Assembly: GCF_000212735.1 (NCBI RefSeq)
Contig: NC_015510.1
Span: 2,232,001-2,296,000 of the forward strand
Length of the DNA: 64,000 nucleotides
Reading direction: 5' to 3'
DNA from: Haliscomenobacter hydrossis DSM 1100
GTDB lineage: Bacteria > Bacteroidota > Bacteroidia > Chitinophagales > Saprospiraceae
Each line of letters starts with the position of its first letter. The stretch's first letter is position 1. The notes below the pieces were generated by a model. It saw only the letters and a program-made list of their open reading frames with translations, searched no databases and was not told the DNA's origin. Made by a program: the position numbers and the translations under genes. Below, one piece after another: positions 28,698 to 53,530 of the stretch.

Positions 28698-28766
28698 ATT
28701 TTCAGTTTTATAGGTATATGAATAGAATAAGAACATGTTTCCAGGAAGGACGGTTGAACAAATCAG

Positions 28767-37320: not shown

Positions 37321-38973
37321 CTAATTGGTCCCTGCCGTACTGCGGGCGGGCGGCAACAAGGGCTGCGCAGGTTTAATTTTATCGTAATCCACTACACCAT
37401 TTTGTTGGGCCCACTGAAAGTAGAGCTTCGACAAAGCATCCACCACCAGCAGATTTTGACTGGCTACGTTTTGGGCTTCAGCTCGATCTTTTTCCAGATC
37501 GTAGAGTTCCCAACGGTAGCTGGGGTAGATGGACACCAGCTTCCACTTGCCTTGCCTCACGGCGCGGTTGCCCGCTCGCTCCCAAAAAATGGGCTCGCCA
37601 CGTTCCCAGGCTTCGGTTTTGAACAACAGGTTGCTCAGGCTTTTTCCTTGCAGGGCGTTTGTGCTTACTCCATTGTAAGTACTTGGGTATTTCAGGCCCG
37701 CCAACTCATAAAAAGTAGGTGCCAAATCAATCAAGTGCGCCGTGCCCTTGGCAATACTACCCGCCTTGATCTTTCCGGGAAACCAGGCGATGAAAGGTGA
37801 ACTAATGCCTCCTTCATAGGCAAAGGACTTGAAAGAACGGAAGGGCGTATTGGAGACGTAAGACCAGGGTTTACCTTGGGACTCAAAAGAACCTGCGGTG
37901 CCGACTGGGCCAGTGTTGCGTCCGGCGTGGTTTTTATCGCGGTGCGCCATGTCCTCAGCGGGTGCGCCATTGTCAGAGATGAAAATGATCAGGGTATTGT
38001 CGTCTTTTTTCAACTCTTTCAGTTTGGCCAATACTTTTCCCACGCCTTGATCGGCACGATCCAACATGGCGGCGTACACTTCCATTTTGGCTTTCCACAA
38101 TTGTTTTTCCTCAAAAGTCAGGTTGTCCCAATCGGGCACTTCCACATCACGGGCAGCGGCAGCATCGGCCTGTGCCTGGGTGATGATGCCCAACTTGACC
38201 TGCCGAGCCAGGCGTTCTTTGCGCAGGGCATCCCAGCCTGTGTCGTATTTGCCGCGGTATTTGGCAATGTCTTCAGGCAAAGCCTGGAGTGGCCAGTGGG
38301 GCGCAGTGTAGGCCAGATAAAGGAAAAACGGTTTATCCATTTTGTTTTGCTCATCGAGGAATTGTACCGCGTGGTTGGTGATTTCATCGGTGAAATAGTA
38401 GCTGTTGGCCTTGGGCTTTTGGCGTTGATTGTCCTCCAAAATCACCACGGGGTATTGGCGACCCAGCGGCATAGGTTCGGCATCGAAATAATTGGAACCA
38501 CCGCCGATGACACCAAAGAAGCGGTCAAAACCGCGCTGTTTTGGCCAGTGCAAACTGTCATTGCCCACGTGCCATTTGCCCGAAAGCAAGGTGCTATACC
38601 CAGCCTGGCGCAGCACTTCACCAAAGGTCAGGGATTCTTTGTTCAGGTAACCTTGATAAGGCGGAATACCCAAATTGACATCAAAATAACCAACACCCGC
38701 CTTATGTGGATATTGCCCGGTGATGAGCGATGCCCGGGTAGGTGCACAAATGGAGTTGTTGTAAAACTCCCGCAAGCGCAGCCCTTCGTAGGCCAGTTTG
38801 TCGATATTGGGCGTTTGAATCTCTGAGCCGTAAGCGCCCAGATCGGAATAGCCCATGTCGTCCACCATAATGAGGATGATGTTGGGCTTTTTGGTTTGGG
38901 CCTGGACTAGCGGAGCAATGATGCTCGAAAACAGTGCCAGCAGGGCAATTATGAAGGATGTTTTGTGTTGCAT
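37321..38973 (-). CDS. sulfatase (Cys-type, arylsulfatase family)
   Basis: A 550-residue exported sulfatase with a signal peptide (IIALLALFSSIIAPLVQAQ). Near the N-terminus, PNIILIMVDDMGYSDLG gives the metal-binding aspartates, and NNSICAPTRASLITGQYP holds the CxPxR signature whose cysteine is turned into formylglycine. GKWHVGND supplies the K and H that stabilise the sulfate. A later DNGAPAEDM gives further metal ligands. The length fits the family. Such enzymes remove sulfate esters from glycans in the periplasm. The downstream sulfatase is clearly related and 12 bp away, so the pair is a tandem duplication. Confidence 0.93.
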   Translation of the reverse strand: MQHKTSFIIALLALFSSIIAPLVQAQTKKPNIILIMVDDMGYSDLGAYGSEIQTPNIDKLAYEGLRLREFYNNSICAPTRASLITGQYPHKAGVGYFDVNLGIPPYQGYLNKESLTFGEVLRQAGYSTLLSGKWHVGNDSLHWPKQRGFDRFFGVIGGGSNYFDAEPMPLGRQYPVVILEDNQRQKPKANSYYFTDEITNHAVQFLDEQNKMDKPFFLYLAYTAPHWPLQALPEDIAKYRGKYDTGWDALRKERLARQVKLGIITQAQADAAAARDVEVPDWDNLTFEEKQLWKAKMEVYAAMLDRADQGVGKVLAKLKELKKDDNTLIIFISDNGAPAEDMAHRDKNHAGRNTGPVGTAGSFESQGKPWSYVSNTPFRSFKSFAYEGGISSPFIAWFPGKIKAGSIAKGTAHLIDLAPTFYELAGLKYPSTYNGVSTNALQGKSLSNLLFKTEAWERGEPIFWERAGNRAVRQGKWKLVSIYPSYRWELYDLEKDRAEAQNVASQNLLVVDALSKLYFQWAQQNGVVDYDKIKPAQPLLPPARSTAGTN

Positions 38974-38985: not shown

Positions 38986-40728
38986 TTAATTGCTGCCCGC
39001 GCGAGGGTTACCTTGTCCTTCACGCCCTTGATTTGCAGCATTGTTCCGATTGTTGTTAGGATTGTTGTTGCCTGGATTGGGTGTCCCCGGAAAATTTGGA
39101 ACCACGCGCAGTTTGTCATAATTTTCTACACCGTTGCGCTTGGCCCAGGCTTCGTAGTCTGCAATCAGCCCTTTGACTACGTCGGGATAAACCGCGGCCA
39201 AATCGGTCGTTTCGCCTCGGTCTGCTTCGATGTCATACAACTGCCAAGGGTTATTTGATTTTGTGCCTGGAACAGGAGATGCCGGAGGATTGTACAGAGA
39301 AACCAGTTTCCACTTGCCTTTGCGCACCGCGCGATTGCCGGCCCGTTCCCAAAAGATGGGTTCGTTGCGCACAAGGTCATTGCCTTCAAACAAGAGGTTT
39401 TTTAGGCTCACCCCAGGTAAGGTGTTGGTCTGAACTCCACGATAATTCGTTGGATAGTTCACGCCTGCCACATCGTAAAAAGTGGGTGCGAGGTCAATCA
39501 AGTGGCCAGTTCCTTTGGTAATCGTTCCCGCTTTGATCTTTTTAGGGAACCAAGCGATGAAGGGTGAACTGATGCCCCCTTCGTGCGAAGTGGCCTTGTA
39601 ATTGCGGAAAGGTGTATTGGACACATAAGCCCAGTTTTGCTCCTGGTAGTCATAAGATCCTGCTGAACCGATCGGCCCAGAGTTGCGCTGCCGCCGCCGC
39701 TGACCGAGCTGATTTAATCCACCCTGTGCACCGTTATCAGAAATCAAAACGATCAAGGTATTGTCGTCTTTTTTGAGCTTTTTTAACTCTTCCACTACCC
39801 GGCCCACGCTTTGATCCACGTGGTCGACCATGGCTGCATACACCTCCATTTTGCGCTGCCACAACTCCTTTTCGTCAAAAGTGAGGCTTTCCCAAGCCAC
39901 TACTTCCGGGTCGCGCTCGGCAACTTTTTGCCGGGGATCGGCAATGCCTAAGGCCAGTTGACGGCGGTAACGCTGGGCGCGTAAGGAATCCCAGCCGATT
40001 TTATATTTGCCCTTGTACTTGGCAATGTCTTCCGCGGGTGCCTGCAGCGGCCAGTGCGGCGCATTGAAAGCTAGGTAAAGAAAAAAAGGTTTGTCTTTGG
40101 ATTCGTTGATGTACGAGAGGGCGTGGTTGGTGATCTCGTCGGTCAGGTACTTGCCAGGTGCGAGGTTGATGCGCTGGTTGTTTTCGACCAATTCTACTGG
40201 TGGTGCTTTTTCGGGATAAGGACTGATGTCGTAATAATTGCTGGCTCCGCCGATGAAGCCGTAGAATTTGTTGAATCCCCGTTGGTTCGGCCAGTACAGA
40301 CTGTCGTTGCCGACGTGCCATTTGCCGGTCAGGTAGGTGTTGTAGCCACCTTGTTGCAGCACCTCGCCAAAGGTGAGGGATTCCTGGTTCAACCAGCCTT
40401 GGTAGGCGGGCAAACCCAGGTTGGTGTTGAAATACCCCAGTCCTGCCTTGTGTGGGTATTGCCCGGTGATCAGTGAAGCGCGGGTAGGCGCGCAGATGGA
40501 GTTGTTGTAAAACTCCTTGAGTCGTAGCCCGCCGTAAGCCAATTTGTCGATGTTGGGGGTTTGGATTTCGGAGCCATAAGCGCCAAAATCGGAGTAGCCT
40601 AAGTCGTCGACCATGATGAGGATGATGTTGGGTTTGCTGGGGGTAGGGGCTGGTGTTGTCTTGCCCTTTTTTTGTGCAGAGGCACTAAATGCCAGAAATA
40701 AGGCAAAGACAAAAAGTATAGGTCTCAT
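38986..40728 (-). CDS. sulfatase (Cys-type), with an Asn-rich C-terminal tail
   Basis: A 580-residue sulfatase related to its neighbour. A signal peptide (FVFALFLAFSASAQ) precedes PNIILIMVDDLGYSDFG and the formylglycine motif NNSICAPTRASLITGQYP. GKWHVGND and DNGAQGGLNQL are also present. The last 35 residues are rich in Asn, Gly and Pro (PGNNNPNNNRNNAAN), a low-complexity tail that the other copy lacks. It is the upstream gene of the pair and lies 290 bp from the SusD gene. Sulfated host or algal polysaccharides are likely substrates; which ones is unknown. Confidence 0.92.
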   Translation of the reverse strand: MRPILFVFALFLAFSASAQKKGKTTPAPTPSKPNIILIMVDDLGYSDFGAYGSEIQTPNIDKLAYGGLRLKEFYNNSICAPTRASLITGQYPHKAGLGYFNTNLGLPAYQGWLNQESLTFGEVLQQGGYNTYLTGKWHVGNDSLYWPNQRGFNKFYGFIGGASNYYDISPYPEKAPPVELVENNQRINLAPGKYLTDEITNHALSYINESKDKPFFLYLAFNAPHWPLQAPAEDIAKYKGKYKIGWDSLRAQRYRRQLALGIADPRQKVAERDPEVVAWESLTFDEKELWQRKMEVYAAMVDHVDQSVGRVVEELKKLKKDDNTLIVLISDNGAQGGLNQLGQRRRQRNSGPIGSAGSYDYQEQNWAYVSNTPFRNYKATSHEGGISSPFIAWFPKKIKAGTITKGTGHLIDLAPTFYDVAGVNYPTNYRGVQTNTLPGVSLKNLLFEGNDLVRNEPIFWERAGNRAVRKGKWKLVSLYNPPASPVPGTKSNNPWQLYDIEADRGETTDLAAVYPDVVKGLIADYEAWAKRNGVENYDKLRVVPNFPGTPNPGNNNPNNNRNNAANQGREGQGNPRAGSN

Positions 40729-41018: not shown

Positions 41019-42446
41019 CTACCAACCCGGATTTTGCTCCAAATTTGGATTCAAATCAATCTCCCTTTGAGGAATTGGATAGAGGTAGTGCTTCTCCTGC
41101 ACATTGGTTTTGCCCACGGCTTTCAGATTCTGGACAAGCCGCCCGGTACGCACCAGGTCAAACCAGCGTTGGTGCTCGTACACAAATTCCAGGCGACGCT
41201 CATGATAGACCGCTTCCCTGAATTCACTTTGTGACAAGTTGCTCAAAGGCTGTAACCCTGCACGGGTGCGTACCCGGTTCAACGCAGTATACGCCTCGGC
41301 AGTAGGCCCCGATTTTTCATTGAGCGCTTCGGCATACTCCAGCAGCACGTCCGCAAAACGAATGATCGGGAAATTGATGCCTGAGTCACCCGTATTGGGA
41401 TTCACCGCTGGATCGTAATACTTGCGGAAATGGGGCGTGAAAGTGTAGGTTTTGCCATTGGAGCCCACCAGGGAAGTGAAAAAGGTCACATCGCGGCGTT
41501 TGTCTTCGGTGCTGTAAAGTGGATACAATTGGGTCGTTGGAATATCCGCATCCCCACCATCAATGCCGGGAATCCCGGTGGGGGTGCCCCGGCTGCCCAG
41601 GGAGTTGCCCCGTCCATTGGTATTGCTCTTGAATTGAGCCGAAAAAATATGCTCTTTCCCATTGTTGTTGGCTTTGTTGAACACGTCGGCGAAATTGGCA
41701 AAAAGGTCGTAGCCATAAGGCCCGTCGATGACCTCGGCGGCTTTGGTAATGGCGTTGTCCCAATCCTTACGGGTCAGGTAAACGCGTACCAGTAGCGACT
41801 TGGCTGCACCACCTGTGGCGCGGCCAAGGTCACTTTTGGGATAGCTGGCAGGCAAGGCTTCGGCGTCTTTCAAATCGGCGATGATTTGGCGGTACACCTC
41901 ATCCGCGGTGGCCCGAGCAACCTGAACCTTGTCTTTACTCAAATTAGTCGGCTCTTGCAAGATGAGGGGTACGCCCCCGTAGAGGCGCACCAAGTTGAAA
42001 TAATACAGAGCACGTAAAAACTTAGCTTCATTCACCAATCTTGTCCTGAGGGTAGCATCAAAGTCGATGGCAGGAATTTTTTCAATCGCAATGTTGGCGC
42101 GGTTGATCGCCGCGTAGTGCTGCCGCCAAATCTCGTCAACGCGGTCGTTGGTCGTAGCGTGCGAGAGCACCGCAAAGGCGCGTACGTTGGCATTGCGGGC
42201 GCGAGGGCCGGGCAGTGCTTCATCGGAAGCGATGTCCATCCCAATTTGGAAAAGGCTGTTGTAAATTGTCTGGCCGCTGGCGTTGAGCGGCTGATAAACC
42301 GCATTGACGGCGGCAATGGCGTCCGACTGGGTTTGGTAAAACTGGTCACTGGTCAAAAATGCCTCGGGATTTTCTTCCAGACTGGTGCAGGTTTGTAGCC
42401 CCAGGAGTATGATGGATGCGAAAGTGAAACGCAATAACTTATTCAT
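41019..42446 (-). CDS. SusD/RagB-like glycan-binding lipoprotein
   Basis: A 475-residue outer-membrane lipoprotein: the lipobox LGLQTC (about residues 15-20) follows a hydrophobic signal. SusD features are the helical repeat start (SDQFYQTQSDAIAAVNAVYQ), the later VYHERRLEFVYEHQRWFDLVR and the terminal PIPQREIDLNPNLEQNPGW. These proteins cap the partner SusC barrel and bind the sugar. It directly follows the SusC gene (45 bp), which is the normal order for a polysaccharide utilization locus. The preferred glycan is unknown, but the sulfatases suggest a sulfated one. Confidence 0.93.
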   Translation of the reverse strand: MNKLLRFTFASIILLGLQTCTSLEENPEAFLTSDQFYQTQSDAIAAVNAVYQPLNASGQTIYNSLFQIGMDIASDEALPGPRARNANVRAFAVLSHATTNDRVDEIWRQHYAAINRANIAIEKIPAIDFDATLRTRLVNEAKFLRALYYFNLVRLYGGVPLILQEPTNLSKDKVQVARATADEVYRQIIADLKDAEALPASYPKSDLGRATGGAAKSLLVRVYLTRKDWDNAITKAAEVIDGPYGYDLFANFADVFNKANNNGKEHIFSAQFKSNTNGRGNSLGSRGTPTGIPGIDGGDADIPTTQLYPLYSTEDKRRDVTFFTSLVGSNGKTYTFTPHFRKYYDPAVNPNTGDSGINFPIIRFADVLLEYAEALNEKSGPTAEAYTALNRVRTRAGLQPLSNLSQSEFREAVYHERRLEFVYEHQRWFDLVRTGRLVQNLKAVGKTNVQEKHYLYPIPQREIDLNPNLEQNPGW

Positions 42447-42490: not shown

Positions 42491-45400
42491 TTAAAAACCA
42501 ATGTTCAAACCAAACTGGTACGACTTGGCAATCGGATACGAACCATAATCAATCCCCTGCTGGAGGGTAGATTGTTCGTTGCGGCTCACATCGGGATCGT
42601 AACCCGTGTACTTGGTGATGGTCAATGGGTTGTTGGCCAGTACGTAGAGACGCAGATTTTTGATTGCCTTCAACTTACCTTTGGGGAAAGTGTAGCCAAA
42701 AGTGAGCGTTCGCAAGCGCAGGTAAGAAGCATCTTCCACGTAACGGCTGGTGGTCACGGGCGCGGGGTCTTCTTTGGCTCTTTGTACGGTATTGGCAGGA
42801 TTCGTTGGCGTCCAACGATCCAGGGCTGAGGAAGCTGCGTTTTGTTGCCCGGAAAGCAATTCCAGCTGTTGGCGGTTTTGGTTGAAAATTTGGTTGCCAT
42901 ACGAGGCGTAGAAGAAAACCGAAAGGTCAAAACCCTGGTACGCGAAGTTGTTGGTGAAGCCCGCCAAAAACTTGGGTTGGGCGTACCCGATGATGGTGCG
43001 GTCGTCGGCTTGGGTGATTTTGCCGTCGCCGTTAATGTCGGTATAAAGGCGGTCGCCGGGTTTGGTCGACGCTGGATCAATCACCGGAATTTTGTCCACA
43101 TCGTCGCCTGTTTGCAACAAGCCTGCGGATTGGAAGCCAAAAAACGCGCCCAGAGGCTGTCCAACCTGCGCAATATTGGGATCGGAAATCAGGTAGCTGA
43201 CCCCATCGCCCAAGCTCAGAATTTTGTTGCGGTTGATGGAAAATAAGATGTTGCTGGTCCACTGGAATTTGCCCCGGGTGTTCTGGGTATTCAGGGCCAG
43301 TTCAAATCCTTTGTTTTCTACCGTGCCATAATTTTGCAGGGAGGTCGTGTAACCCGTCGTATAAGGCACTGGCACGGTCAACAAAAGTGCACTCGTCTCC
43401 TTGCGGTAAGCATCAAAAGTGAGGCTGATGCGGTCGTTGAACAAACCCAGGTCAAAACCAAAATCGATTTGGGTGGTTTTTTCCCAACTCAAATTGGGAT
43501 TGGCAATGCGGCTTGGGGCAAAACCTACCGCCAATTGGTCGCCAAAAATATAGGCATTGTTGGACAGGGTAGCCAGGGATTGGAATTGCCCAATTTCCTG
43601 ATTGCCCGTGATGCCTGCGGAGAGGCGCAATTTGAGGTTGTTGACAACCTCCCATTTTTCCAAAAACGACTCATTGCTCAGGTTCCAGGCCAAAGCCGCC
43701 GAGGGGAAATAACCCCACTTGTTGTTTTTGCCAAAACGAGAAGAGCCATCTGCGCGAGCAGTGAGGGTCAGGTAGTATTTGCGGTCAAAATTGTAATTGA
43801 TGCGCCCCAGGAAGGACTGCAAGGTCCAGGCCGAAGCCGAAGAAGCAGGCAAGACATTGAGCGAACCACTGGAAATGTTGTTGTAGGTCAACAGGTCGGA
43901 CACAAAGCCGCGGGCGTTGGCGATCACACTTTCGTTTTGATAGCTTTGTTGAGTGTACCCCGCCAACACATTGAGGCTATGCTCTTTTATAGCTTTGGTG
44001 TACGACAAGGTATTCTCATTCAGCCAGGTGTTGACGAATTTTGACCCTACCGAAGCGGAACCACTGGTCGTATACCCTTCAAATAAACTGGAAGGAATGT
44101 AGCGATTTTGTTTGTTGTTGATGATGTCGCCGCCCACCAGAACCTTGGCTACCAGGTTTTCCAAAATGGTGTATTCTGCTGAAAAACTCCCTAAGAGGCG
44201 GAAGGTCGTAGTTTTGTTGATTTCCTGTTCCAGGGTCGCAATCGGATTACCCAAGGCCACTTCAAATGGACTTTGTAGGGTGTAATTCCCGTTGGCGTCA
44301 TAAATGGACACAGTGGGAGGCAATAACAACAGCGTACTGACCACCGAGGAATTGGCCTCGTTGGCCGAAGTACGGCTTGCCGTCAAATTGGTACCCACTT
44401 TGAACTTTTCGGAAATGCTGCGATCCAAATTCAAACGCAAGGAATAGCGGTCAAAATCCGAACCCCGCAAGATGCCATCCTGCTTGAAATAATTGGCGGA
44501 AATGGCGTAGCGCGTTTTGTCGTCACCACCCGAAAAAGTCAACTGGTGGTTTTGAATGGGGGCTTTTTTGAAGGCTGCGGCTTGCCAGTCGGTGCCACCT
44601 TGCAGGGCATCAATTTGGGCCTGGGTGTAAAAGGCCGGTTTGCCCGCAGCAATCAAGGCATCGTTTTTGAGTAGTGCCCAATCGCGGGAACTGGTCAACA
44701 CATCGATCCGTTTGATGAGTTCCTGTTGGCCGTAGTAAGTTTCATACGATACGTTGTTTTGCCCTTTTTTGCCCCGTTTGGTCGTAATGATCACCACACC
44801 GTTGGCTCCACGCGAGCCATAAATGGCGGTGGCCGAAGCGTCTTTCAACACGTCGATGGATTCAATATCGGAGGGGTTGAGGCTGGCCAGGGCATTGATG
44901 CTGGGGCCACTGGTTACGCCCGCGTTGACATCGTTGTTGTCGTTGTACACCGGGAAACCGTCGATGACGTACAAGGGCTCGTTACCCCCGGTGATGGAGT
45001 TACCACCACGGATGCGGATACTCACCGCCGCGCCAGGCTGGCCCGAGGCTTGTACGACTTGTACCCCGGACACGGAACCTTGCAACAAGCGGTCAAAAGA
45101 ACTGACTGGCGTTTGTTCAATGATTTGTTTGGACACCGAAGCTACCGAACCAGTCAGGTCGGACTTCTTCTGGGTGCCATAACCCACCACTACAAACTCG
45201 TTCAGTTGTTTGGCGTCTTCAGCAATGGTGATGCGAATGTTGCTGGTTTCAGCAATGACCTCCCTGGTTTTGTAGCTCAGGTTGCTAATGATCAAGGTGT
45301 AAGGTAGGACCTGGCCAGTTTGGAAGTAAAATTTTCCCTCTACGTCGGTCACTACCCCGTGGGTCGTCCCTTTGATTTGCACCGTGGCACCAATCACGGG

Positions 45401-45526
45401 TTCTTTGGTCTTTTCATCCAGGACCTCTCCGTGGAGGGTCGAATTGATGATGGCCGGGTTGCTTTGGGCGTTGAGTGCCCAGGCGAAAAGCACAAAGCTC
45501 AGCCATGCAAGTAATTGTTTTTTCAT
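42491..45526 (-). CDS. SusC/RagA-family TonB-linked outer membrane protein
   Basis: A 1011-residue SusC-type receptor. Signal peptide (WLSFVLFAWALNAQ), carboxypeptidase-regulatory-like domain (about 30-110), the SusC hallmark VVGYGTQKKSDLTGSV, plug motif LYVIDGFPVYN and IYGSRGANGVVIITTKRGKKG, and a C-terminal barrel ending in QFGLNIGF. With SusD it imports oligosaccharides. It is the first gene on the minus strand of the PUL with SusD, two sulfatases and the LamG-like gene. No glycoside hydrolase or anti-sigma factor is seen near it. Confidence 0.95.
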   Translation of the reverse strand: MKKQLLAWLSFVLFAWALNAQSNPAIINSTLHGEVLDEKTKEPVIGATVQIKGTTHGVVTDVEGKFYFQTGQVLPYTLIISNLSYKTREVIAETSNIRITIAEDAKQLNEFVVVGYGTQKKSDLTGSVASVSKQIIEQTPVSSFDRLLQGSVSGVQVVQASGQPGAAVSIRIRGGNSITGGNEPLYVIDGFPVYNDNNDVNAGVTSGPSINALASLNPSDIESIDVLKDASATAIYGSRGANGVVIITTKRGKKGQNNVSYETYYGQQELIKRIDVLTSSRDWALLKNDALIAAGKPAFYTQAQIDALQGGTDWQAAAFKKAPIQNHQLTFSGGDDKTRYAISANYFKQDGILRGSDFDRYSLRLNLDRSISEKFKVGTNLTASRTSANEANSSVVSTLLLLPPTVSIYDANGNYTLQSPFEVALGNPIATLEQEINKTTTFRLLGSFSAEYTILENLVAKVLVGGDIINNKQNRYIPSSLFEGYTTSGSASVGSKFVNTWLNENTLSYTKAIKEHSLNVLAGYTQQSYQNESVIANARGFVSDLLTYNNISSGSLNVLPASSASAWTLQSFLGRINYNFDRKYYLTLTARADGSSRFGKNNKWGYFPSAALAWNLSNESFLEKWEVVNNLKLRLSAGITGNQEIGQFQSLATLSNNAYIFGDQLAVGFAPSRIANPNLSWEKTTQIDFGFDLGLFNDRISLTFDAYRKETSALLLTVPVPYTTGYTTSLQNYGTVENKGFELALNTQNTRGKFQWTSNILFSINRNKILSLGDGVSYLISDPNIAQVGQPLGAFFGFQSAGLLQTGDDVDKIPVIDPASTKPGDRLYTDINGDGKITQADDRTIIGYAQPKFLAGFTNNFAYQGFDLSVFFYASYGNQIFNQNRQQLELLSGQQNAASSALDRWTPTNPANTVQRAKEDPAPVTTSRYVEDASYLRLRTLTFGYTFPKGKLKAIKNLRLYVLANNPLTITKYTGYDPDVSRNEQSTLQQGIDYGSYPIAKSYQFGLNIGF

Positions 45527-45696: not shown

Positions 45697-45733
45697 AAAA
45701 AAACGGCTAGATGGAGTCCGTCAAGCCGTTTTT
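45697..45733 (-). terminator. intrinsic terminator of the CysH-like gene
   Basis: On the minus strand AAAAACGGCT and AGCCGTTTTTTT pair around a 15-base loop. It lies 39 bp beyond the CysH-like stop (45772) and is a good Rho-independent terminator. Confidence 0.75.
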
Positions 45734-45771
45734 GATTGTTAGCTATTTTTCTACAAGGAAAAATTATATAC

Positions 45772-46476
45772 CTACACCGCATGCTTGCGCACGCCAGGAG
45801 TGTGAGGATGGATAAAAATCCGTTGGGCATGCTCCCACCACCAGCGGCCATCCCAAAACTCGGAGCTATGCGCCGTTTCGATGTCTTGCGCATGGCCTAC
45901 CCGCAGGTAGCCTTGGTTGTGCAGGGGATTGAAAGGAACCCCTTCGCGCAATACTTCCATAAACACCTTGTGGAAGGAGCGGTGGAAAAGCGGATGGAAT
46001 TCGAAGATTTTCAGGGATTTGTTCCAGGAAAAATCAGCGGTGAGTTGACGGCCTTGCCAGCTTTGACCAGCGCGAGTGCCCGTAATCAGCAGCATTTCAC
46101 CTTGCAGAATGGGTTGTAGATTTTCTTCAAATGAAGATGTCGTCGATGCTGGATGCTGGGGCTGGTTTTCCAGTACACTGCCATCAGTCGCATAAACGGT
46201 AATTGGCACCTGGTAACGTTCCTGGGTTTTTGCCCAGGTCGTGTAAGTTTCTTTGAAGGGGTAGTTGGGGTTGCTCACGACGACCTTGATGGGCAAGTTG
46301 TGGGTAGCAATCCAATGGGTAATGAGTTGGTCTTCGAGGGTGAAATTGGTCAAAAAAACTGCCTTGCCTGCAAATTGCTCGGCGATGAGGCGGAGGTTTT
46401 GCAGTGGGTTAGCTTCTCCTTGGGCGTCCAGTTGGTTGGCGATTTGTGTGACTAATCCATGGGATAACGTATTCAT
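45772..46476 (-). CDS. PAPS/APS reductase (CysH)-like protein without any cysteine
   Basis: From the ATG at 46476 (MNTLSHGLVTQ) it has 234 residues, the CysH length; the longer frame upstream is not protein-like. It aligns by eye with CysH: FLTNFTLEDQLITHWIA (loop of the ATP-PPase fold), NPNYPFKETYTTWAKTQERY, LITGTRAGQSW and the C-terminal VPFNPLHNQGYLRVGHAQDI then DGRWWWE. In CysH the corresponding VG-C-x-x-C and CC-x-x-R segments hold the iron-sulfur cysteines, and a C-terminal KECG holds the catalytic Cys. Here all are lost (GHAQDI instead), and the protein contains no cysteine at all. It follows hypC by 103 bp on the same strand, probably in the hyp operon. A sulfate-reducing activity is unlikely. 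Confidence 0.8.
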   Translation of the reverse strand: MNTLSHGLVTQIANQLDAQGEANPLQNLRLIAEQFAGKAVFLTNFTLEDQLITHWIATHNLPIKVVVSNPNYPFKETYTTWAKTQERYQVPITVYATDGSVLENQPQHPASTTSSFEENLQPILQGEMLLITGTRAGQSWQGRQLTADFSWNKSLKIFEFHPLFHRSFHKVFMEVLREGVPFNPLHNQGYLRVGHAQDIETAHSSEFWDGRWWWEHAQRIFIHPHTPGVRKHAV

Positions 46477-46579
46477 CTCCTTGTAGTTTTTGATGATTTG
46501 TTGGTTGAACACTACAAAGATAGGAGAAAAATTTAAAAGTCTATTATTTCTATAGAGTTTTTGAAAAAAATAACCTAAC

Positions 46580-46834
46580 TCATTCCAACTGTAAATCCTC
46601 CAATTCGCCAATTTCTTGCAGATAAGAAAAAGTCCGTTTGGCTTCTTCTTCATCCACGACGCTGATGGCTACGCCGACGTGAACCAATACATAGTCCCCC
46701 ATTTTGGCGTCGGGTGTCATGGACAGGTCTACATCTTTGGAAATGCCTCCAAAGGAAACCTTGGCTTGGCGGACATTTTTATGCAACACTGAAGGCGTAA
46801 TGGCCGTGATTTTTCCGGGAATTGCTAGGCACAT
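46580..46834 (-). CDS. hypC: HypC/HupF family hydrogenase maturation chaperone
   Basis: An 84-residue protein that starts MCLAIPGKI, the family signature in which the N-terminal Cys2 binds HypD and the hydrogenase precursor. In the family, the carboxylate-rich end (ELEDLQLE here) is variable. HypC guards the Fe(CN)2CO centre in assembly of the large subunit. It lies 12 bp after hypB on the minus strand, so the two are co-transcribed. Length and motif leave little doubt. Confidence 0.96.
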   Translation of the reverse strand: MCLAIPGKITAITPSVLHKNVRQAKVSFGGISKDVDLSMTPDAKMGDYVLVHVGVAISVVDEEEAKRTFSYLQEIGELEDLQLE

Positions 46835-46846
46835 GGTAACAGGATT

Positions 46847-47725
46847 TTAATGAATGACTGCATAAGTAATTTCTTCTTGCCCGTCAGAGACAGAATTTAA
46901 CTTCACCCTAGGGCGAGCCAATAACCATTGGTACCAGGCTTCCATCCCTGCACCTGTCGTTGCCGAAACCTCGATAAATTCCAAATTGGGATTGACGCGC
47001 CGAGCAAAATCTTTGGCGCGTTCCAGGTCAAACTTTACATAGGGCAATAAATCAATTTTGTTGATGAGACAGAGTTGGGCGGAATGGAACATATCCGGGT
47101 ACTTGATTGGTTTGTCGTCGCCCTCGGTAACGCTGATGATGACAACCCGAGCGGTTTCGCCCAAATCAAACATCGCCGGGCAAACCAGATTGCCTACGTT
47201 TTCAATCATCACCACTGCATCTTCAGCGGGGCGCAACTCGTGCAAAGCGCGATACACCATCTCGGCATCCAGGTGGCAGCCTTGGCCGGTGTTGATTTGC
47301 ACTACGGGTGCACCCGTGGCTGCGATACGATCAGCATCCTGGGTGGTTTGTTGGTCGCCTTCAATGACCGCAAAATTCATTTTTTCGCGCAGGTCGTGCA
47401 GGGTGCGCTCCAACAAAGCTGTTTTACCTGAACCTGGCGAACTGACCAGATTGAGCGCCAGAATATTTTTGGCTTCAAAGTAACCTCGATTGCGTTGAGC
47501 AGACTGGTTGTTTTTGGCCAAAATATCTTGTTCCAAATGGATGGTTTTTTTTTCTCCCGAACTTGTTGTGGGTACGGCAGCTGGAGCACTGTGTTGATGC
47601 GGACCATACCATAAAAAGTGCCAAAAACGTCCCCAGCCACTCAAGTGTTGGTGTTGGGCGTCATCCCCTACCCGGGTGATGCTGACCCCATCTTCGTGTG
47701 AACTACAACCACAGGTGGTGCACAT
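46847..47725 (-). CDS. hypB: HypB nickel-inserting GTPase
   Basis: A 292-residue GTPase. The N-terminus MCTTCGCSS contains the high-affinity nickel motif CxxCGC. A His-containing linker (HQHLSG, PHQHSAPA) follows, then the GTPase with the P-loop SSPGSGKTALLE, a later switch/DxxG-type region (VIEGDQQT, VGNLVCP) and the base-recognition NKIDLLPY. HypB delivers nickel to hydrogenase with HypA. Its start is 18 bp from a palindromic element (47743-47904) that separates it from hypA. Confidence 0.96.
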   Translation of the reverse strand: MCTTCGCSSHEDGVSITRVGDDAQHQHLSGWGRFWHFLWYGPHQHSAPAAVPTTSSGEKKTIHLEQDILAKNNQSAQRNRGYFEAKNILALNLVSSPGSGKTALLERTLHDLREKMNFAVIEGDQQTTQDADRIAATGAPVVQINTGQGCHLDAEMVYRALHELRPAEDAVVMIENVGNLVCPAMFDLGETARVVIISVTEGDDKPIKYPDMFHSAQLCLINKIDLLPYVKFDLERAKDFARRVNPNLEFIEVSATTGAGMEAWYQWLLARPRVKLNSVSDGQEEITYAVIH

Positions 47726-47742
47726 AATTCAAACAGTTTCTA

Positions 47743-47904
47743 AGAAGCTGTTTGAAAGTATATCGCGAAAGCGAAAAGGAGGCTAATTGAAGCCAAATGA
47801 GGCACGAAAAGCGGAGTTTAGCAGCGCTAAATGAGCATTTTCGGAACGAAATTTGGCTTCAATTAGGCCCTTTGGAGCTCGCGATATACTTTCAAACAGC
47901 TTCT
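47743..47904. repeat. palindromic element that supplies the stop codon of hypA
   Basis: The arms AGAAGCTGTTTGAAAGTATA (47743 on) and its reverse complement ending at 47904 match over 25 bp. A second inner pair (GGCTAATTGAAGCC and GGCTTCAATTAGGCC) extends the stem. The right arm overlaps the end of hypA: the last codons GAA GCT GTT and the TGA lie within it. It fills the gap between hypA and hypB, which could lower expression of hypB and hypC relative to hypA. Confidence 0.85.
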
Positions 47905-48239
47905 AAAGTGATGGATTTTATTTTCAACTCCCTGCCTTCCGTCACTTGTACAAAATAACTGTTGCAAATCGGGCAAGGATCATACAAGGTCGTTACGGGG
48001 AAACTCAGTCCACAATCGCTGCACTCCGCTTTACCCGGGATGAGGGTAAATTTTTTCTCTGCTTGCGCCAGAATCGAGCGTTTGATGCCTTCACTCCAGG
48101 CAAACTCCAGGGCATCCAATTCCACGCCAGACAAGGCACCGATTTCCAACTCAATGGCATCGATGCGCTCGGCCTGGTTTTCATGCGCAACTTGCGCGGC
48201 CGCATCCACTACACTCAAGACGATGGATAACTCGTGCAC
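47892..48239 (-). CDS. hypA: HypA hydrogenase/nickel maturation factor, GTG start
   Basis: From the GTG at 48239 it has 115 residues and begins with the conserved (M)HELSIV, in which His2 is the nickel ligand. An upstream ATG at 48305 would add 22 residues, partly translated from a repeat, and would put His2 inside the chain, so it is rejected. The two zinc CxxC pairs are visible: AECSDCGL and DPCPICNS. HypA gives nickel to the large subunit with HypB. It begins the minus-strand hyp series. Its last codons lie in a palindrome. Confidence 0.94.
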   Translation of the reverse strand: MHELSIVLSVVDAAAQVAHENQAERIDAIELEIGALSGVELDALEFAWSEGIKRSILAQAEKKFTLIPGKAECSDCGLSFPVTTLYDPCPICNSYFVQVTEGRELKIKSITLEAV

Positions 48240-48277
48240 AGCTTTGTAAATCTGGTTTTTATAAAAAAAATTCCACA

Positions 48278-48400
48278 AAGTAGTGGGGCAAAAATAAGTG
48301 CTCATTTTTCCTAAGCCAGAGGATTAGATAAGGCACTTAAAATGAAACGTTTACTTATCTAATCCTCTGGCAAAATGATCACTTATTTTTTTATTGCCCC
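48278..48400. repeat. inverted repeat copy A, upstream of the hydrogenase small subunit
   Basis: A palindromic element of about 123 bp. It has a core AAGTAAACGTTTCATTTTAA (on the minus strand) in the middle and outer arms GGGGCAAAAATAAGTG and CACTTATTTTTTTATTGCCC. A near copy in opposite orientation lies at 51586-51709, after the large subunit gene; by eye about 88% of positions match. The pair brackets hupS-hupL. Confidence 0.9.
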
Positions 48401-48630
48401 TATGCAATATTAGCTGTGCATCGAAAAAAGCCGAATGACAAAAATCATTGACAGCAATGATCTGTATCACTCGAATCGCCAGTTGCTTTTACAAATTTTG
48501 TAACATCCTATAAAATCTAATATTTCTCTCTCTTTCTCCCTAAAGCCTACCCGGCCACCATAATTTTCTAAAGCATCCTTTCTACCGAGGTTCGTACAGA
48601 GCCAGCGGCAGATCGCAAAAACGCAAGAAA

Positions 48631-49740
48631 ATGGCCGCACAAACCGACCAAAAGCGCCCTACCTACTTCGAAGAAGTGATGCGCAAGGGCTATGAGCGCA
48701 GGGATTTTTTAAAATTCTGTGCCACGATGGCTGCCTACATGGGTCTGGAAACCTCCGGCGTAGCCCAGATTACGGACGCCTTGATGAACAAACCTCGCCT
48801 CCCGGTGATTTGGTTGCACTTCCAGGAATGTACCTGTTGTAGCGAGTCTTTCATCCGCTCTTCCCACCCTATGGTGGCCGATATCTTACTGGATCAAATC
48901 TCGCTGGACTATACCGAAACCTTGATGGCTGCTTCCGGCTTCCAGGCTGAGGCCGCTATGCAGGATACTATGAAAAAATACAAGGGTGAGTTGGAAGGCT
49001 CCATTCCTACTGCTGCCGACGGCGTTTATTGCTGCATCGGTGGGAAATCGGCCCTGCAAATTCTGGAAGAAACCGCTGCCAACGCCAAGGCGATCATTGC
49101 CTGGGGCAGTTGTGCTACCCACGGTTGTGTGCAGGCGGCCAAGCCCAACCCTACCAAGGCTACTCCCGTGCGCAAACTCATCAGTGGCAAACCGATCATC
49201 AATGTGCCGGGCTGCCCACCGATTGGGGAGGTAATGGCGGGAGTGATTGTCCATGTAGTCACTTTTGGTACCATTCCTGAACTGGATAGCCTGGGACGCC
49301 CCAAAGCGTTCTACTCCAAGCGCGTACATGATTCCTGCCAACGCCGTCCGTACTACGACGCCGGGATGTTTGTGGAAAGCTTCGATGATGAAGCCGCCAA
49401 AAAAGGTTATTGTTTGTACAAAGTAGGCTGTAAAGGTCCTTCTACTTACAATGCCTGCGGGGTTATGAAGTGGAACAACGGGGTCAGCAACCCAATCATT
49501 TCGGGCCACGGCTGTATTGGCTGTAGCGAAGAAAACTACTGGGACAATGGTCGCTTGTACGAGCGGGCTTCAGTTTTCCCTGGTTTTGGCATCGAAAGCA
49601 ATGCGGATACCGTCGGTAAAGTTGCACTGGGTGTTACAGCAGCCGGTATCGCAGCACACGCCATCATGACCAATGTGCGCAAAAAAGAACTCATTTCAGA
49701 CTTGATTGGAGAAGGAAAGGAAACGGAGAAGGAAATCTGA
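48631..49740 (+). CDS. hyaA: [NiFe] hydrogenase small subunit, oxygen-tolerant group 1d type
   Basis: A 369-residue precursor with a twin-arginine signal (YERRDFLKFC, about residues 21-30) and a C-terminal membrane anchor (KVALGVTAAGIAAHAIMTN). Iron-sulfur ligands are clear: ECTCCSES (proximal cluster) and WGSCATHGCVQAAKPN. In standard enzymes these read CTGCSE and GGVQAA; the extra cysteines correspond to Cys19 and Cys120 of E. coli Hyd-1, which make the oxygen-tolerant [4Fe-3S] cluster. The distal and medial cluster motifs (GCKGPSTYNACG, GHGCIGCSEENYWD) are also present. It passes electrons from the large subunit to cytochrome b. The symbol is the Hyd-1 name; hupS is a synonym. Confidence 0.95.
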   Translation: MAAQTDQKRPTYFEEVMRKGYERRDFLKFCATMAAYMGLETSGVAQITDALMNKPRLPVIWLHFQECTCCSESFIRSSHPMVADILLDQISLDYTETLMAASGFQAEAAMQDTMKKYKGELEGSIPTAADGVYCCIGGKSALQILEETAANAKAIIAWGSCATHGCVQAAKPNPTKATPVRKLISGKPIINVPGCPPIGEVMAGVIVHVVTFGTIPELDSLGRPKAFYSKRVHDSCQRRPYYDAGMFVESFDDEAAKKGYCLYKVGCKGPSTYNACGVMKWNNGVSNPIISGHGCIGCSEENYWDNGRLYERASVFPGFGIESNADTVGKVALGVTAAGIAAHAIMTNVRKKELISDLIGEGKETEKEI

Positions 49741-49745
49741 AAAAC

Positions 49746-49853
49746 GGTTCAAAGGTTCGAAGGTTCGTGAGTTCGAGGGTTCTATCCGGTCACTGAGCGC
49801 AGTCGAAGTGCCGGACGGAATCCTCGAACCATCGAACCCTCGAACCTCGGAAC
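49746..49853. repeat. palindromic element between hydrogenase small and large subunits
   Basis: The arms GGTTCAAAGGTTCGAAGGTT (49746 on) and TCGAACCCTCGAACCTCGGAACC (to 49853) form a long stem with short direct repeats of GGTTCGA. The loop holds CACTGAGCGCAGTCGAAGTG, a repeat unit that I know is common in Bacteroidota genomes. It fills the 127-bp gap between the two subunit genes. A strong hairpin here could tune the ratio of the two proteins. Confidence 0.85.
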
Positions 49854-49867
49854 CCTAAACCAAAAAC

Positions 49868-51586
49868 ATGAGCCAAAGAATTGTCATAGATCCAATTACC
49901 CGTATCGAGGGTCACCTGCGCATTGAAGCAGACATCCAAAACGGGAAAGTATCCGATGTATACAGCGCGGGCACCATGGTTCGTTTGCTGGAAGAAATAT
50001 TGCGGGGTCGCGATCCACGCGACGCCTGGGCTTACGTTGGTCGGGTATGTGGAGTATGTACCTCAACGCACTCACTGGCTTCGGTACGAACGGTTGAAGA
50101 TGCACTCGACATCGTTGTCCCCCCCAATGCCGAGATTGTGCGCAACCTGATGTTTGCTACACTTTATATGCACGACCACGTAGTCCATTTTTATCACTTG
50201 CACGCCCTGGATTGGGTGGATGTGGTCAATGCACTCAAAGCAGATCCAAAAAAGACTTCCGAACTGGCCCAGAGCATTTCCAACTGGCCCAAAAGTTCGA
50301 CAGGTTATTTTTCTGACCTACAAAAACGCATCGGCAAGTTTGTAGAAAGTGGCCAGCTGGGCATTTTCACCAATGGTTACTGGGGGCATTCTGCATACAA
50401 ACTGCCGCCTGAAGTCAACCTGATTGGCCTGGCGCATTACCTGGAAGCCTTGGAATGGCAAAAAGAAATTGTCAAAGTTCAAACCATTTTTGGTGGCAAA
50501 AACCCCCACCCCAACTACCTGGTGGGTGGGATGGCCTGTGCCATTGGACTAGACGATGTGAGTGCCATCAATGCAGAACGGCTGGCATACATCAAACAGT
50601 TGCTGGACGATGGCAAACGCTTCATCGAGCAGGTATACATACCTGACCTCCTGGCGGTGGCTTCTTTTTACAAAGATTGGGGGGCAATCGGTGGTGGCCT
50701 GGGCAACTACCTGGTGTACGGCGATTTGCCTACCAATGGGTTCCGCGATCCTAGTTCCTTCAAGTTCCCAGCGGGGGCTATTTTGAACAAAGACTTGTCC
50801 AAAGTACACGAAGTGAACATGCGGGAAGACAGCGAGATTCAGGAATTCATCAACAAATCCTGGTACTCGTATGAAGGTGGGGACAATGTAGGTTTGCACC
50901 CCTGGAAAGGGGAAACCAAGCTCAACTATACGGGGCCAAAACCACCCTACGAACACCTGAATACGGAAGAAAAATACAGCTTCCTCAAAACACCCCGCTG
51001 GAAAGGGCACGCGATGGAAGTAGGTCCATTGGCCCGGGTACTGGTGGGGTATGCCAAGGGCATTCCCGAATTCAAAGAAGTGGTCGATTCAGCATTGAAG
51101 CACCTGGATGTGCCAGCAACCGCCCTCTTTTCAACATTAGGCCGTACCGCCGCACGAGGCCTGGAAGCACAACTGGTGGCCAATTGGGCGCAGGAGTTTT
51201 ATGACCAATTGATCCAAAACATCAAGTTGGGCGATACCCGCATGGCCAACACCGAAAAGTTCCAACCCGAAACCTGGCCAGCCCAGGCCAAGGGCGTGGG
51301 TCACGCTGAAGCACCTCGCGGGGCACTGGGGCACTGGATTGTCATCGAAGATCAAAAAATTGCGAACTATCAACTGGTGGTTCCAACGACCTGGAATGCT
51401 TCGCCACGCGATCCACAGGGGCAAATGTCGGCTTACGAAGCTGCCTTGATGGATACGCCGATTGCCGATCCGGAGAGGCCAGTAGAAATCCTGCGCACCG
51501 TGCATTCGTTTGACCCTTGCATGGCTTGTGCGGTACACTTGTACGATGAAGAAGGTAAGCACCTCAGTCGGGTGAAAGTTCTTTAG
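49868..51586 (+). CDS. hyaB: [NiFe] hydrogenase large subunit
   Basis: A 572-residue catalytic subunit. RIEGHLRIE is at the N-terminus. The L1 motif GRVCGVCTSTHS (RxCGxC) and the C-terminal L2 motif DPCMACAVH provide the four cysteines that hold the Ni-Fe centre. After the His, a 15-residue tail (LYDEEGKHLSRVKVL) should be cut off by the maturation protease encoded at 52530. The length is normal. The gene's stop overlaps the first base of the inverted repeat copy B. It oxidises H2 with the small subunit at the periplasmic face. Confidence 0.96.
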   Translation: MSQRIVIDPITRIEGHLRIEADIQNGKVSDVYSAGTMVRLLEEILRGRDPRDAWAYVGRVCGVCTSTHSLASVRTVEDALDIVVPPNAEIVRNLMFATLYMHDHVVHFYHLHALDWVDVVNALKADPKKTSELAQSISNWPKSSTGYFSDLQKRIGKFVESGQLGIFTNGYWGHSAYKLPPEVNLIGLAHYLEALEWQKEIVKVQTIFGGKNPHPNYLVGGMACAIGLDDVSAINAERLAYIKQLLDDGKRFIEQVYIPDLLAVASFYKDWGAIGGGLGNYLVYGDLPTNGFRDPSSFKFPAGAILNKDLSKVHEVNMREDSEIQEFINKSWYSYEGGDNVGLHPWKGETKLNYTGPKPPYEHLNTEEKYSFLKTPRWKGHAMEVGPLARVLVGYAKGIPEFKEVVDSALKHLDVPATALFSTLGRTAARGLEAQLVANWAQEFYDQLIQNIKLGDTRMANTEKFQPETWPAQAKGVGHAEAPRGALGHWIVIEDQKIANYQLVVPTTWNASPRDPQGQMSAYEAALMDTPIADPERPVEILRTVHSFDPCMACAVHLYDEEGKHLSRVKVL

Positions 51587-51709
51587 GGGCGATAAAAAAA
51601 TAAATTGTCCATTTTGACAAAGGATTAGATAAGTAAACGTTTCATTTTAAGTGTCTTATTTAATCCTTTGGCTCAGAAAAAATGAACATTTATTTTTGCC
51701 CCACTACTT
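51586..51709. repeat. inverted repeat copy B, downstream of the hydrogenase large subunit
   Basis: A near reverse complement of copy A (48278-48400), with about 88% of positions matching by eye and one indel. Its ends GGGGCGATAAAAAA and TTTTTGCCCCACTACTT are the same as those of copy A. It begins with the last base of the large subunit stop codon and ends 19 bp before the cytochrome b start (51729). Confidence 0.9.
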
Positions 51710-51728
51710 AATGCAAAAAGCTAAGGTT

Positions 51729-52442
51729 ATGAGCGAGCATCAGATTGTTCACCACAAACTCCTGCGGGTTTTTGTATGGGAATTGCCCGTGAGGGTTTAC
51801 CATTGGCTCAACGCAGCCAGTATAACGGCTTTGGTGGTGACCGGTTTTTTCATTTCCAACCCTCCGGCCTTGCAGGTGAGCGACGAAGCGGTTTTCCGCT
51901 TCTGGTTTGGCAAAATCCGGTTCATCCATTTTGTAGCGGCGTACCTCTTTTTGTTCAACTTTATCATTCGGATTTACTGGGGCTTCGTGGGTAACAAATA
52001 CGCCTCCTGGAAGAATTTCGTCCCTACAAATCGACGCTTTTTCCAGGAGATGTGGCAGGTCATCAAAATGGATATCCTGCAACTGAAAGGGAAAGAACAC
52101 ATTGCCGTGGGGCACAATGCACTGGCAGGATTCATCTACTTTCTAACCTTTATCGCTTTTGTGGTACAGGTGATTACTGGATTCGGGTTGTACGCCGCCA
52201 CAAGTGAATGGTGGTTCCCACAATTATTTGCCTGGGTACCTGGTGTATTTGGAGGTGACGCACCGCTGCGGCATTTCCACCACGCCGCGATGTGGTTCTT
52301 CATCCTGTTTGCAGTCGTCCACGTCTACCTGGTTTTTTACCATGATTATGTAGAAGGTCGGGGTGAAATTTCTTCCATGGGGGGAGGCTGGAAGTTCATT
52401 GAAGAAGATGCGGTAGAGGAACTAAAAACACACCATAAATAA
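51729..52442 (+). CDS. hyaC: Ni/Fe-hydrogenase b-type cytochrome
   Basis: From the ATG at 51729 it has 237 residues with four membrane helices (about 21-42, 60-82, 130-155 and 185-210). The haem-ligating histidines occur in RVYHWLNAAS, HFVAAYLFLFNF, GHNALAGF and HHAAMWFFILFAVVHVY. It anchors the hydrogenase and takes its electrons to the quinone pool. The frame reads back into the inverted repeat (to 51651); that part is not protein-like, and the ATG at 51729 gives the usual N-terminus MSEHQIVHHKLLRVFVWE. Confidence 0.94.
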   Translation: MSEHQIVHHKLLRVFVWELPVRVYHWLNAASITALVVTGFFISNPPALQVSDEAVFRFWFGKIRFIHFVAAYLFLFNFIIRIYWGFVGNKYASWKNFVPTNRRFFQEMWQVIKMDILQLKGKEHIAVGHNALAGFIYFLTFIAFVVQVITGFGLYAATSEWWFPQLFAWVPGVFGGDAPLRHFHHAAMWFFILFAVVHVYLVFYHDYVEGRGEISSMGGGWKFIEEDAVEELKTHHK

Positions 52443-52529
52443 GCCTAAAAACAGCAATACACTTTTCATTGCATCATTGTCGGCCGGGTGAGTGCGATTC
52501 ACCCGGTCGCTTTTTTAAATAGTAACCTT

Positions 52530-53009
52530 ATGGCAGTTCTAATCATGGGCATTGGTAATTATTTGATGGGCGACGAAGGGGTTGGTGTACATGTAGCCCA
52601 ACGCCTAGCCATGGAGGCACTACCCGAAGGGATTGACCTACTGGATGGAGGCACCGGGGGATTTTTCCTGATGGAATATTTTGAAAATTATCCCGTAGTC
52701 ATCCTCATCGATGCTACGCTGGATGAGCGGCCTACGGGTACAATTCGGATAATTGAGCCTCGTTTTGCAGCCGATTTCCCTCGGGCAATGAGTACCCATG
52801 ACATTGGCCTACGCGATTTGGTGGAAGGTTTGACCATCCTGGGCAAACTCCCCAAAATTTACTTGTTTGCAGTTTCCATTGCCATGGTACAACCACAACA
52901 AATTGAATTGTCGCCTGAATTAGAGCAAGGAATGCCTGGGTTGTTGGAACACGTAAAAACCATGGCGATGAACATATTAAAGGAGACCGCGGGTCAAATT
53001 TTGGCATAA
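52530..53009 (+). CDS. hyaD: hydrogenase maturation endopeptidase (HyaD family)
   Basis: From the ATG at 52530 it has 159 residues: MGIGNYLMGDEGVGVHVAQR starts with the Rossmann-like fold and the nickel-binding Glu (DEG). Further nickel ligands lie in VILIDAT (Asp) and STHDIGLRDL (His). The enzyme cuts the C-terminal tail from the large subunit after nickel is inserted. It is the last gene of the plus-strand hydrogenase series, 87 bp after cytochrome b. The longer frame from 52488 is not conserved. Confidence 0.93.
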   Translation: MAVLIMGIGNYLMGDEGVGVHVAQRLAMEALPEGIDLLDGGTGGFFLMEYFENYPVVILIDATLDERPTGTIRIIEPRFAADFPRAMSTHDIGLRDLVEGLTILGKLPKIYLFAVSIAMVQPQQIELSPELEQGMPGLLEHVKTMAMNILKETAGQILA

Positions 53010-53209
53010 AAACGAGTAAACTGCTTGTACCAGGAGACCGCTTGGCTCAAAAATGGTATTTTCACCAAGATTTTAAACGCACCAACACTTACTCCAGGCA
53101 ATAGCATTATTGGAAGAAAGTGATTTAGTTGAAATTGCAGGATAAAACCCATCAAATCTTGGACATTAAAAAACACCTTAAAAAAAGCCACTCTTATCGC
53201 ATCACTGGC

Positions 53210-53530
53210 ATGCTCCGCATCACCGGCCCCGATGAGCCTTTTCTGGGGCCAGGCCGCATTGAGCTGATGGAACACATTGCCGCCACGGGTTCGATCAACA
53301 AAGCCGCGAAGGAAATGGGCATGTCCTATAAAAAAGCCTGGATGATGGTACAATCCCTCAACCGCCAGGCCACTACCCCACTCGTCATCACCCAAACGGG
53401 CGGTGAACAAGGCGGCGGTGCACAGCTGAGTACCGCTGCTCTGGAACTCATGCAAGCTTATCAGGCACTCCGCCAGCGCTTTGAAGCATTTTTGCGGCAA
53501 GAAACCCAAAACCTGCTCCGCGAGGAATAA
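53210..53530 (+). CDS. ModE-like winged-helix regulator (DNA-binding domain only)
   Basis: From the ATG at 53210 (MLRITGPDEPFLGPGRIE) it has 106 residues. The sequence shows the N-terminal winged helix of the molybdate regulator ModE (GRIELMEHIAATGSINKAA, then MGMSYKKAWMMVQSL and the wing TGGEQGGGAQLS). It has no TOBE (molybdate-binding) domain. Proteins of this type in Bacteroidota regulate molybdenum uptake or other genes; the ligand-binding part may be missing. A TTG start at 53129 gives 27 more residues with no family match. It is 200 bp after the maturation protease gene and 2.1 kb before a TonB receptor, with a mobile element in between. Confidence 0.86.
   Translation: MLRITGPDEPFLGPGRIELMEHIAATGSINKAAKEMGMSYKKAWMMVQSLNRQATTPLVITQTGGEQGGGAQLSTAALELMQAYQALRQRFEAFLRQETQNLLREE

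Follow-up and report, generated by a model that had tools for sequence, protein, structure and literature searches.

A cysteine-free CysH paralogue in Haliscomenobacter hydrossis and its relatives, with a possible place in a sulfur-starvation regulon

The locus and its cysteine-free CysH-like protein

The window analysed here is a stretch of 64,000 nucleotides from Haliscomenobacter hydrossis DSM 1100, positions 2232001-2296000 of an 8,371,686-base contig in a genome of 8,771,651 bases. Its minus strand carries a gene, here called cysHx, whose open reading frame runs from an ATG at 46476 to its stop at 45772 (Table 1). The PAPS_reduct model PF01507 matches residues 39-197 of the product with 55.5 bits against a cut-off of 22.5, the NCBIfam CysH models score far under their cut-offs (best 75.1 versus 154 bits), and the closest solved relative by sequence is the adenosine phosphosulfate (APS) reductase 2goy (E 1e-7). 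An earlier note, made from the letters of this DNA, had described a cysteine-free CysH-like frame at this place, and these matches confirm it. The frame stays open for 59 codons above the ATG, to 46653, and this extension holds one cysteine; we discarded it because it overlaps hypC and the operator- and promoter-like signals, and because the frame above the equivalent ATG in the second copy found in the genus (L035) is open for 8 codons only.

Table 1 Features of the cysHx region in the window
Feature	Position	Strand	Remarks
1-Cys peroxiredoxin (Prx)	28056..28736	-	
TBDR1, TonB receptor	29545..32412	-	TSUP-TBDR1-Prx order also in G286 and G299
TauE/SafE (TSUP) transporter	32551..33417	-	PF01925
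TBDR2, TonB receptor	33706..36255	-	open part of 764 aa with 1 Met and no Cys; has homologues near cys operons in g25
Second operator-like site	36339..36358		some 85 bp before the likely start of TBDR2; lacks TAnnTTTG at the usual spacing
Sulfatase 1	37321..38973	-	sulfatase model matches below cut-offs
Sulfatase 2, sulfur-poor	38986..40728	-	4 Met, 1 Cys in 580 residues; matches below cut-offs
SusD-like lipoprotein, sulfur-poor	41019..42446	-	2 Met, 1 Cys in 475 residues; matches below cut-offs
SusC receptor	42491..45526	-	1 Met, 0 Cys in 1011 aa
Terminator-like hairpin and T run after cysHx	45699..45733	-	fold of 45690-45771, z -3.6; placed by hand
cysHx, cysteine-free CysH-like protein	45772..46476	-	234 aa, 0 Cys; PF01507, E 9.1e-15
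Promoter-like element TATCTTTG of cysHx	46515..46522	-	
Operator-like palindrome TCTATAGAAATAATAGACTT upstream of cysHx	46537..46556	-	common to relatives' promoters
hypC-hypB-hypA, hydrogenase small and large subunits, cytochrome b, protease (named by eye)	46580..53009		block inserted between cysHx and modE
hypC	46580-46834	-	upstream of cysHx, 103-bp gap
ModE-like regulator, single-domain	53129..53530	+	Pfam; divergent partner of cysHx in G298

Like the assimilatory APS reductase CysH (PF01507, 2goy), cysHx retains TGxRxxQSxxxR, GRWWWE and EDQ, and the segments VPFNPLHNQGY and GRWWWE that the earlier note had pointed out are both there. It differs from CysH in lacking the cluster cysteines (CC and CxxC), the catalytic ECG, CC-RK and LDTGR, which is replaced by SNPNY. 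The phosphate loop, which the same note had taken to be kept, is altered: the canonical FSTSFGxEDQ reads FLTNFTLEDQ, with both serines (positions 42 and 44) lost and EDQ preserved. Since the serine and glycine residues of this loop are gone, nucleotide binding by cysHx may be gone as well. Altogether, 33 of the 73 columns that are at least 95% conserved across 88 canonical CysH rows are kept in cysHx. Sulfonucleotide reduction as known needs the Cys/DTGR residues that cysHx has lost, and judged by its residues the protein is excluded as a sulfonucleotide reductase by the known mechanism, in agreement with the earlier view that a CysH without cysteine cannot reduce APS or PAPS. An AlphaFold run on the window protein and L035 gave a useless model (mean pLDDT 40.1). 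The H. hydrossis genome holds four PF01507 matches: cysHx, a Cys-bearing CysH of another, distant subfamily (L002), a CysD-like protein named by eye (L001) and one further match (L004).

Relatives and selection

Cysteine-free CysH proteins were found in six of the 398 Saprospiraceae genomes sampled, two in the window's genus (H. hydrossis, G000, and G298) and four in the genus g25 (G584, G565, G571 and G252). The other three of the five genomes in the window's genus do not have the gene, and in g25 it occurs in 4 of the 13 genomes listed with any match. In the family profile search, whose profile was made from the six cysteine-free proteins themselves, only these six genomes scored above 270 bits, the next score being 146. 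Genomes were taken evenly from the larger groups. Searches with a single sequence gave matches in 78 of 298 genomes for the order and in 39 of 398 for the family; with the six-protein profile the numbers were 130 of 396 for the order, 95 of 395 for the class and 34 of 398 for the family. A search for related loci of the window gene found one locus. Cysteine status was read for 99 distinct CysH rows, drawn from the listed matches at no more than 30 loci per search, a classification that covers loci other than L194-L211: CC, CxxC and ECG are all present in 92 of them, a contig end cuts one, and the remaining six have no cysteine. "Cysteine-free" is counted from the chosen start in all six proteins; for L069 this start is an internal methionine at 705, and the dropped N-terminal stretch has one cysteine.

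In a tree of 99 rows (the contig-cut L119 left out, the L002-type CysH included), the six proteins form one clade (95/84) within the Saprospiraceae canonical CysH group (95/92), and cysHx appears to have arisen within Saprospiraceae CysH. Long branches meet in this clade, and the tree program flagged them; when either half of the six was removed, the other half was still placed among the same Saprospiraceae CysH rows. The G298 protein (L035) is identical to cysHx at 214 of 234 residues (91%), with no cysteine and an open frame, which makes the assembly error considered in the earlier note unlikely. The dN/dS ratio is 0.072 for the G000/G298 pair (23 nonsynonymous and 67 synonymous) and 0.090 for the cysteine-free pair of G584/G565, against 0.089 for canonical cysH. 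As judged from these ratios, the cysHx reading frame is under purifying selection. The low dN/dS and the TGxRxxQSxxxR and GRWWWE segments point to a structure that has been kept, and because the protein has no reductase function by the known mechanism and its frame is under selection, the scaffold is likely reused, as had been proposed earlier.

A different view is that cysHx is a relic, a duplicated cysH that lost its function and is decaying with its old promoter still attached. The patchy distribution fits this view and counts against membership in a regulon, and the shortened L122 protein (192 aa) and the very long branch of L069 are as decay would give. The other long branches of the clade, the few conserved positions kept, the short cobA-like frame (145 aa) after the L069 gene and an in-frame stop in TBDR2 of the same island are further points in its favour. 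However, the dN/dS values of the two species pairs (0.07 and 0.09) with their intact frames, the promoter-like and terminator-like signals at cysHx and the absence of all five functional cysteines from each of the six copies argue against it. We consider a relic unlikely, and purely random decay, which the earlier note had named as an alternative, is at odds with the purifying selection on the frame.

Genomic neighbours in the window and in related genomes

The earlier note had set cysHx behind hypC on the same strand, as is indeed the case, and had suggested a role in hydrogenase assembly or control. The gap between the two genes contains the operator-like palindrome and the promoter-like element. 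The Hyp maturation set is adjacent to cysHx in H. hydrossis, and this adjacency is not conserved elsewhere. In the MAG record G298, cysHx is divergent from modE, with modA beyond, and a hydrogenase large subunit 98% identical to that of the window lies on a different contig. There the block is flanked by a GH25 gene on its hyp side (C113) and by genes for MoaD and a lytic transglycosylase on its protease side (C297; these flanking genes were named by eye), and the two contig ends of G286 have the same GH25 and MoaD/transglycosylase flanks. Both G286 and G298 show the order hypB, hypC, GH25, with no CysH relative after hypC. No match to the hydrogenase large subunit was found in G299; one of its contigs carries the GH25 and transglycosylase genes with some 800 bases between them and has no hyp or hydrogenase match. 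In G286 and G298 the block thus occupies another site than in H. hydrossis, and a block-free site exists in G299 (L049, L052, L087, L088, L089).

The two genes cysHx (-) and modE (+), divergent and directly adjacent in G298, are kept apart by the block in H. hydrossis; a local insertion is the simplest reading of this arrangement. The four g25 loci with a cysteine-free gene (9-18 kb each) gave no match at E 1e-8 to the hyp and hydrogenase proteins of the window. Conserved linkage to hydrogenase genes, as seen for Hyp accessory proteins, is therefore missing for cysHx, and its homologues show no link to hydrogenases. A hydrogenase maturation or control factor, for which the position after hypC in H. 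hydrossis speaks, is hardly credible in view of G298, G286 and the g25 loci and of the promoter-like and terminator-like signals that cysHx has of its own. We rejected a hydrogenase accessory role on the non-conserved adjacency; no functional link of the block to cysHx is indicated, and the neighbours are incidental.

The ModE-like regulator is cut down to a DNA-binding domain, HTH_1 being its sole Pfam match, and a transposase-like ORF (named by eye) at 53780-55168 separates modE from TonB receptor and ModA genes. In the L035 locus, a cobalamin riboswitch (L035 4292-4518) lies upstream of a TonB receptor gene near modA-modE-cysHx. The modE and modA neighbours in the genus raise the idea that cysHx is an enzyme of novel activity whose substrate is adenylated or an oxyanion, for instance one related to molybdate. 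PP-loop relatives without cysteine exist, cysHx is divergent from modE in G298, and the orientation of cysHx (-) and modE (+) is kept around the inserted block of H. hydrossis. Nevertheless, G286 and G299 have TauE/SafE beside modE instead, the g25 loci have no modE or modA match, and phosphate-loop residues are lost. Such an activity seems very improbable, and we set aside a molybdate role based on the modE neighbour in G298.

On its other side, cysHx is followed by genes for sulfur acquisition and for sulfur-poor proteins. Among 88 H. hydrossis ORFs of at least 200 aa, taken from the window and six genome stretches, the SusC receptor (0.10%) and TBDR2 (0.13%) have the lowest methionine plus cysteine content, the median being 2.61%; in two further SusC-like proteins of this genome it is 1.0 and 1.8%. 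Read from its likely start at 36255, TBDR2 has an in-frame stop near 36043-36045 (placed by hand), and the H. hydrossis protein may be inactive. Of 431 ORFs (long loci, window excluded), the four poorest in sulfur are TBDR2 homologues near cys operons of g25; all four are cut by the end of the stretch, and the operator is present for two of them. Three elements are hence common to the island of the window and the g25 sulfur loci: the operator, TBDR2 and a CysH without cysteine. Sulfur-poor TonB receptors (no Cys and one or two Met in the part covered) were observed close to sulfate-assimilation genes at L121 15766-18003, L120 1-1590, L055, L057 and L123.

The g25 relatives of cysHx lie in or near sulfate-assimilation genes. 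L120 and L121 have the row rrf2, cysteine-free cysH, bshB-like (PIG-L/BshB), canonical cysH, cysD and cysN, several of them named by eye; L121 also has DUF4395 after the cysteine-free CysH, and cobA and a sulfite-reductase-like flavoprotein at its end (again several by eye). The names cysD, cysN, cobA, MoaD, GH25, transglycosylase and bshB were given by eye, and Pfam was run on nine neighbours; the Rrf2 regulator of the row was identified by PF02082. Rrf2 and a peroxiredoxin are found near the L122 gene, and next to the L069 gene are the cobA-like frame and a BshB-like gene (by eye). An Rrf2 regulator gene is thus near the cysteine-free cysH in three g25 genomes, and among the loci of more than 5 kb, nine have Rrf2 homologues. 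Looked for up to about 9 kb from cysD and 25 kb from the canonical cysH, no Rrf2 gene appeared in H. hydrossis, a point against the regulon reading as far as these stretches go.

The presence of both proteins in one gene row in G584 and G565 could mean that the cysteine-free form is a non-catalytic subunit in mixed oligomers with the true APS reductase, where it would alter activity or stability. H. hydrossis also has a Cys-bearing CysH (L002), but this belongs to a different, distant subfamily, so the same CysH partner is not available there, and we regard mixed oligomers as a rather remote prospect.

Control signals and proposed role

The palindrome and the promoter-like element upstream of cysHx form a composite signal, CTAY-N7-NTAG followed by TAnnTTTG after 16-19 bp, and the element TATCTTTG matches what we take to be the Bacteroidota -7 consensus. 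The composite is common to the cysHx promoters of H. hydrossis and G298, to the TauE/SafE promoters of G286 and G299, where the transporter gene is divergent from modE with the same operator, and to g25 promoters. It occurs at nine distinct sites in 1.25 Mb of redundant loci versus none in 0.68 Mb of shuffled DNA, a control that retains base composition only. Of the nine, five precede cysteine-free genes and two precede TauE/SafE genes; the other two stand before a peroxiredoxin gene that itself lies upstream of cysH (L067) and before a gene that looks unrelated (L069, 4147). In L121, the sixth cysteine-free gene is one base off the composite and outside the nine. Within the 300 bp before the gene, the palindrome alone is present for 15 of the 92 canonical cysH genes and for 20 among 464 other ORFs. 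Judged by eye, these 20 comprise 14 that are cysD, cobA, peroxiredoxin, sulfur-poor receptor or cysteine-free genes and six that are not evidently sulfur genes. The six, and the small share of canonical cysH genes with the operator, count against the regulon reading.

The stricter pattern YCTATN8TAGAMTW, chosen after both window sites were known, has three places in the whole 8.77-Mb genome, two of them in the window, before cysHx and before TBDR2-TSUP. The third is inside a helicase-like frame (by eye) and the reversed-pattern control gave one match, so about one chance match is expected. With its operator and promoter, cysHx carries the signals shared by Saprospiraceae sulfur-assimilation genes, which suggests that it belongs to the same regulon. 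An operon of cysHx with SusC, SusD and the sulfatases is unlikely given the terminator-like hairpin after cysHx in the 245 bp before SusC; a simple hairpin scan did not include this hairpin and listed another at 45647-45624.

Each of the four g25 cysteine-free genes has upstream of it a short ORF in which Cys codons follow one another in runs, together with a strong T-run hairpin (z -4.1 to -6.3). Leaders containing CCC precede 31 of 99 CysH rows versus 11 of 416 other ORFs of the same loci, and among five CCCC controls listed, four look sulfur-related by eye. Leader ORFs with runs of 3-7 Cys codons were noted at L006, L007, L009, L011, L098-L103, L105, L106, L108, L109, L120-L122 and others. 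Such ORFs are possible cysteine attenuators. They resemble the poly-cysteine leader attenuators that Canestrari (2020, among the references of PMC9031893) reportedly described in mycobacteria in having a short Cys-run ORF before sulfur genes, and differ in their Bacteroidota host and, in g25, in the transcription terminator between leader and gene. Neither cysHx nor any other window ORF tested has a poly-Cys leader with a terminator upstream, which for cysHx counts against the regulon reading. Rfam at gathering scores gave nothing in window positions 28000-60000, and in six loci only one cobalamin riboswitch and one tRNA. We found no report in the open-access literature of cysteine leaders in Bacteroidota, of an Rrf2 regulon in Bacteroidetes or of a cysteine-free CysH. 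Leader-peptide attenuation is described for amino-acid operons of Flavobacterium psychrophilum (PMC9723704), and Bacteroides 5' UTRs carry short ORFs (PMC7366714); the relevant passages of the two papers do not name cysteine.

The lost catalytic residues, the selection, the shared control signals and the sulfur gene context are features that can be read from the sequences themselves. From them we propose, with a confidence somewhat better than even, that cysHx is a catalytically dead paralogue of the APS reductase CysH that was duplicated inside the Saprospiraceae and kept by selection in a sulfur-starvation regulon. The protein probably regulates or partners sulfate activation or reduction and does not catalyse it. 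Its methionine content is a point against the sulfur-starvation reading: at 0.5-1.6%, methionine in the cysteine-free CysH proteins is not lower than in canonical CysH (median 0.86%).

We can only outline how such a protein might act. When cysteine drops, an Rrf2-type repressor would free the operator, and in g25, ribosome stalling on the poly-Cys leader would also relieve termination; the CysH-shaped protein would then accumulate. As it is unable to reduce APS, it is most likely a binder, and would bind APS/AMP or a CysH partner such as the ATP sulfurylase CysD/N, thioredoxin, canonical CysH or Rrf2. By doing so, cysHx could tune or report on sulfate activation, on the model of CysK with CymR in Firmicutes, an Rrf2 regulator that passages of PMC2869319 describe in complex with this sulfur enzyme. 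The likeness lies in the genes, with an Rrf2 gene close to that of a sulfur-enzyme-shaped protein in the three g25 genomes, whereas CysK is an active enzyme of another family and cysHx is predicted to be catalytically dead. A bolder and doubtful extension is a Saprospiraceae starvation regulon that spares sulfur, whose receptors, one sulfatase and a CysH paralogue would have been stripped of cysteine and often of methionine. In it, cysHx would be a dedicated APS- or partner-binding sensor of activated sulfate for Rrf2 or the sulfate-activation enzymes, and repressor, poly-Cys attenuator and pseudoenzyme would make up one circuit.

The cysHx protein would thus represent a new form of the CysH family, linked to sulfur starvation. 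The window presents elemental sparing at an extreme, with a SusC receptor of 1011 aa that has one methionine and no cysteine, and it leads on to the poly-cysteine leader ORFs ahead of Bacteroidota cysH genes. If the proposal is true, a pseudoenzyme derived from a central sulfur-assimilation enzyme has been held in the regulon of that enzyme, and the sensing of sulfate activation in Bacteroidota would become testable.
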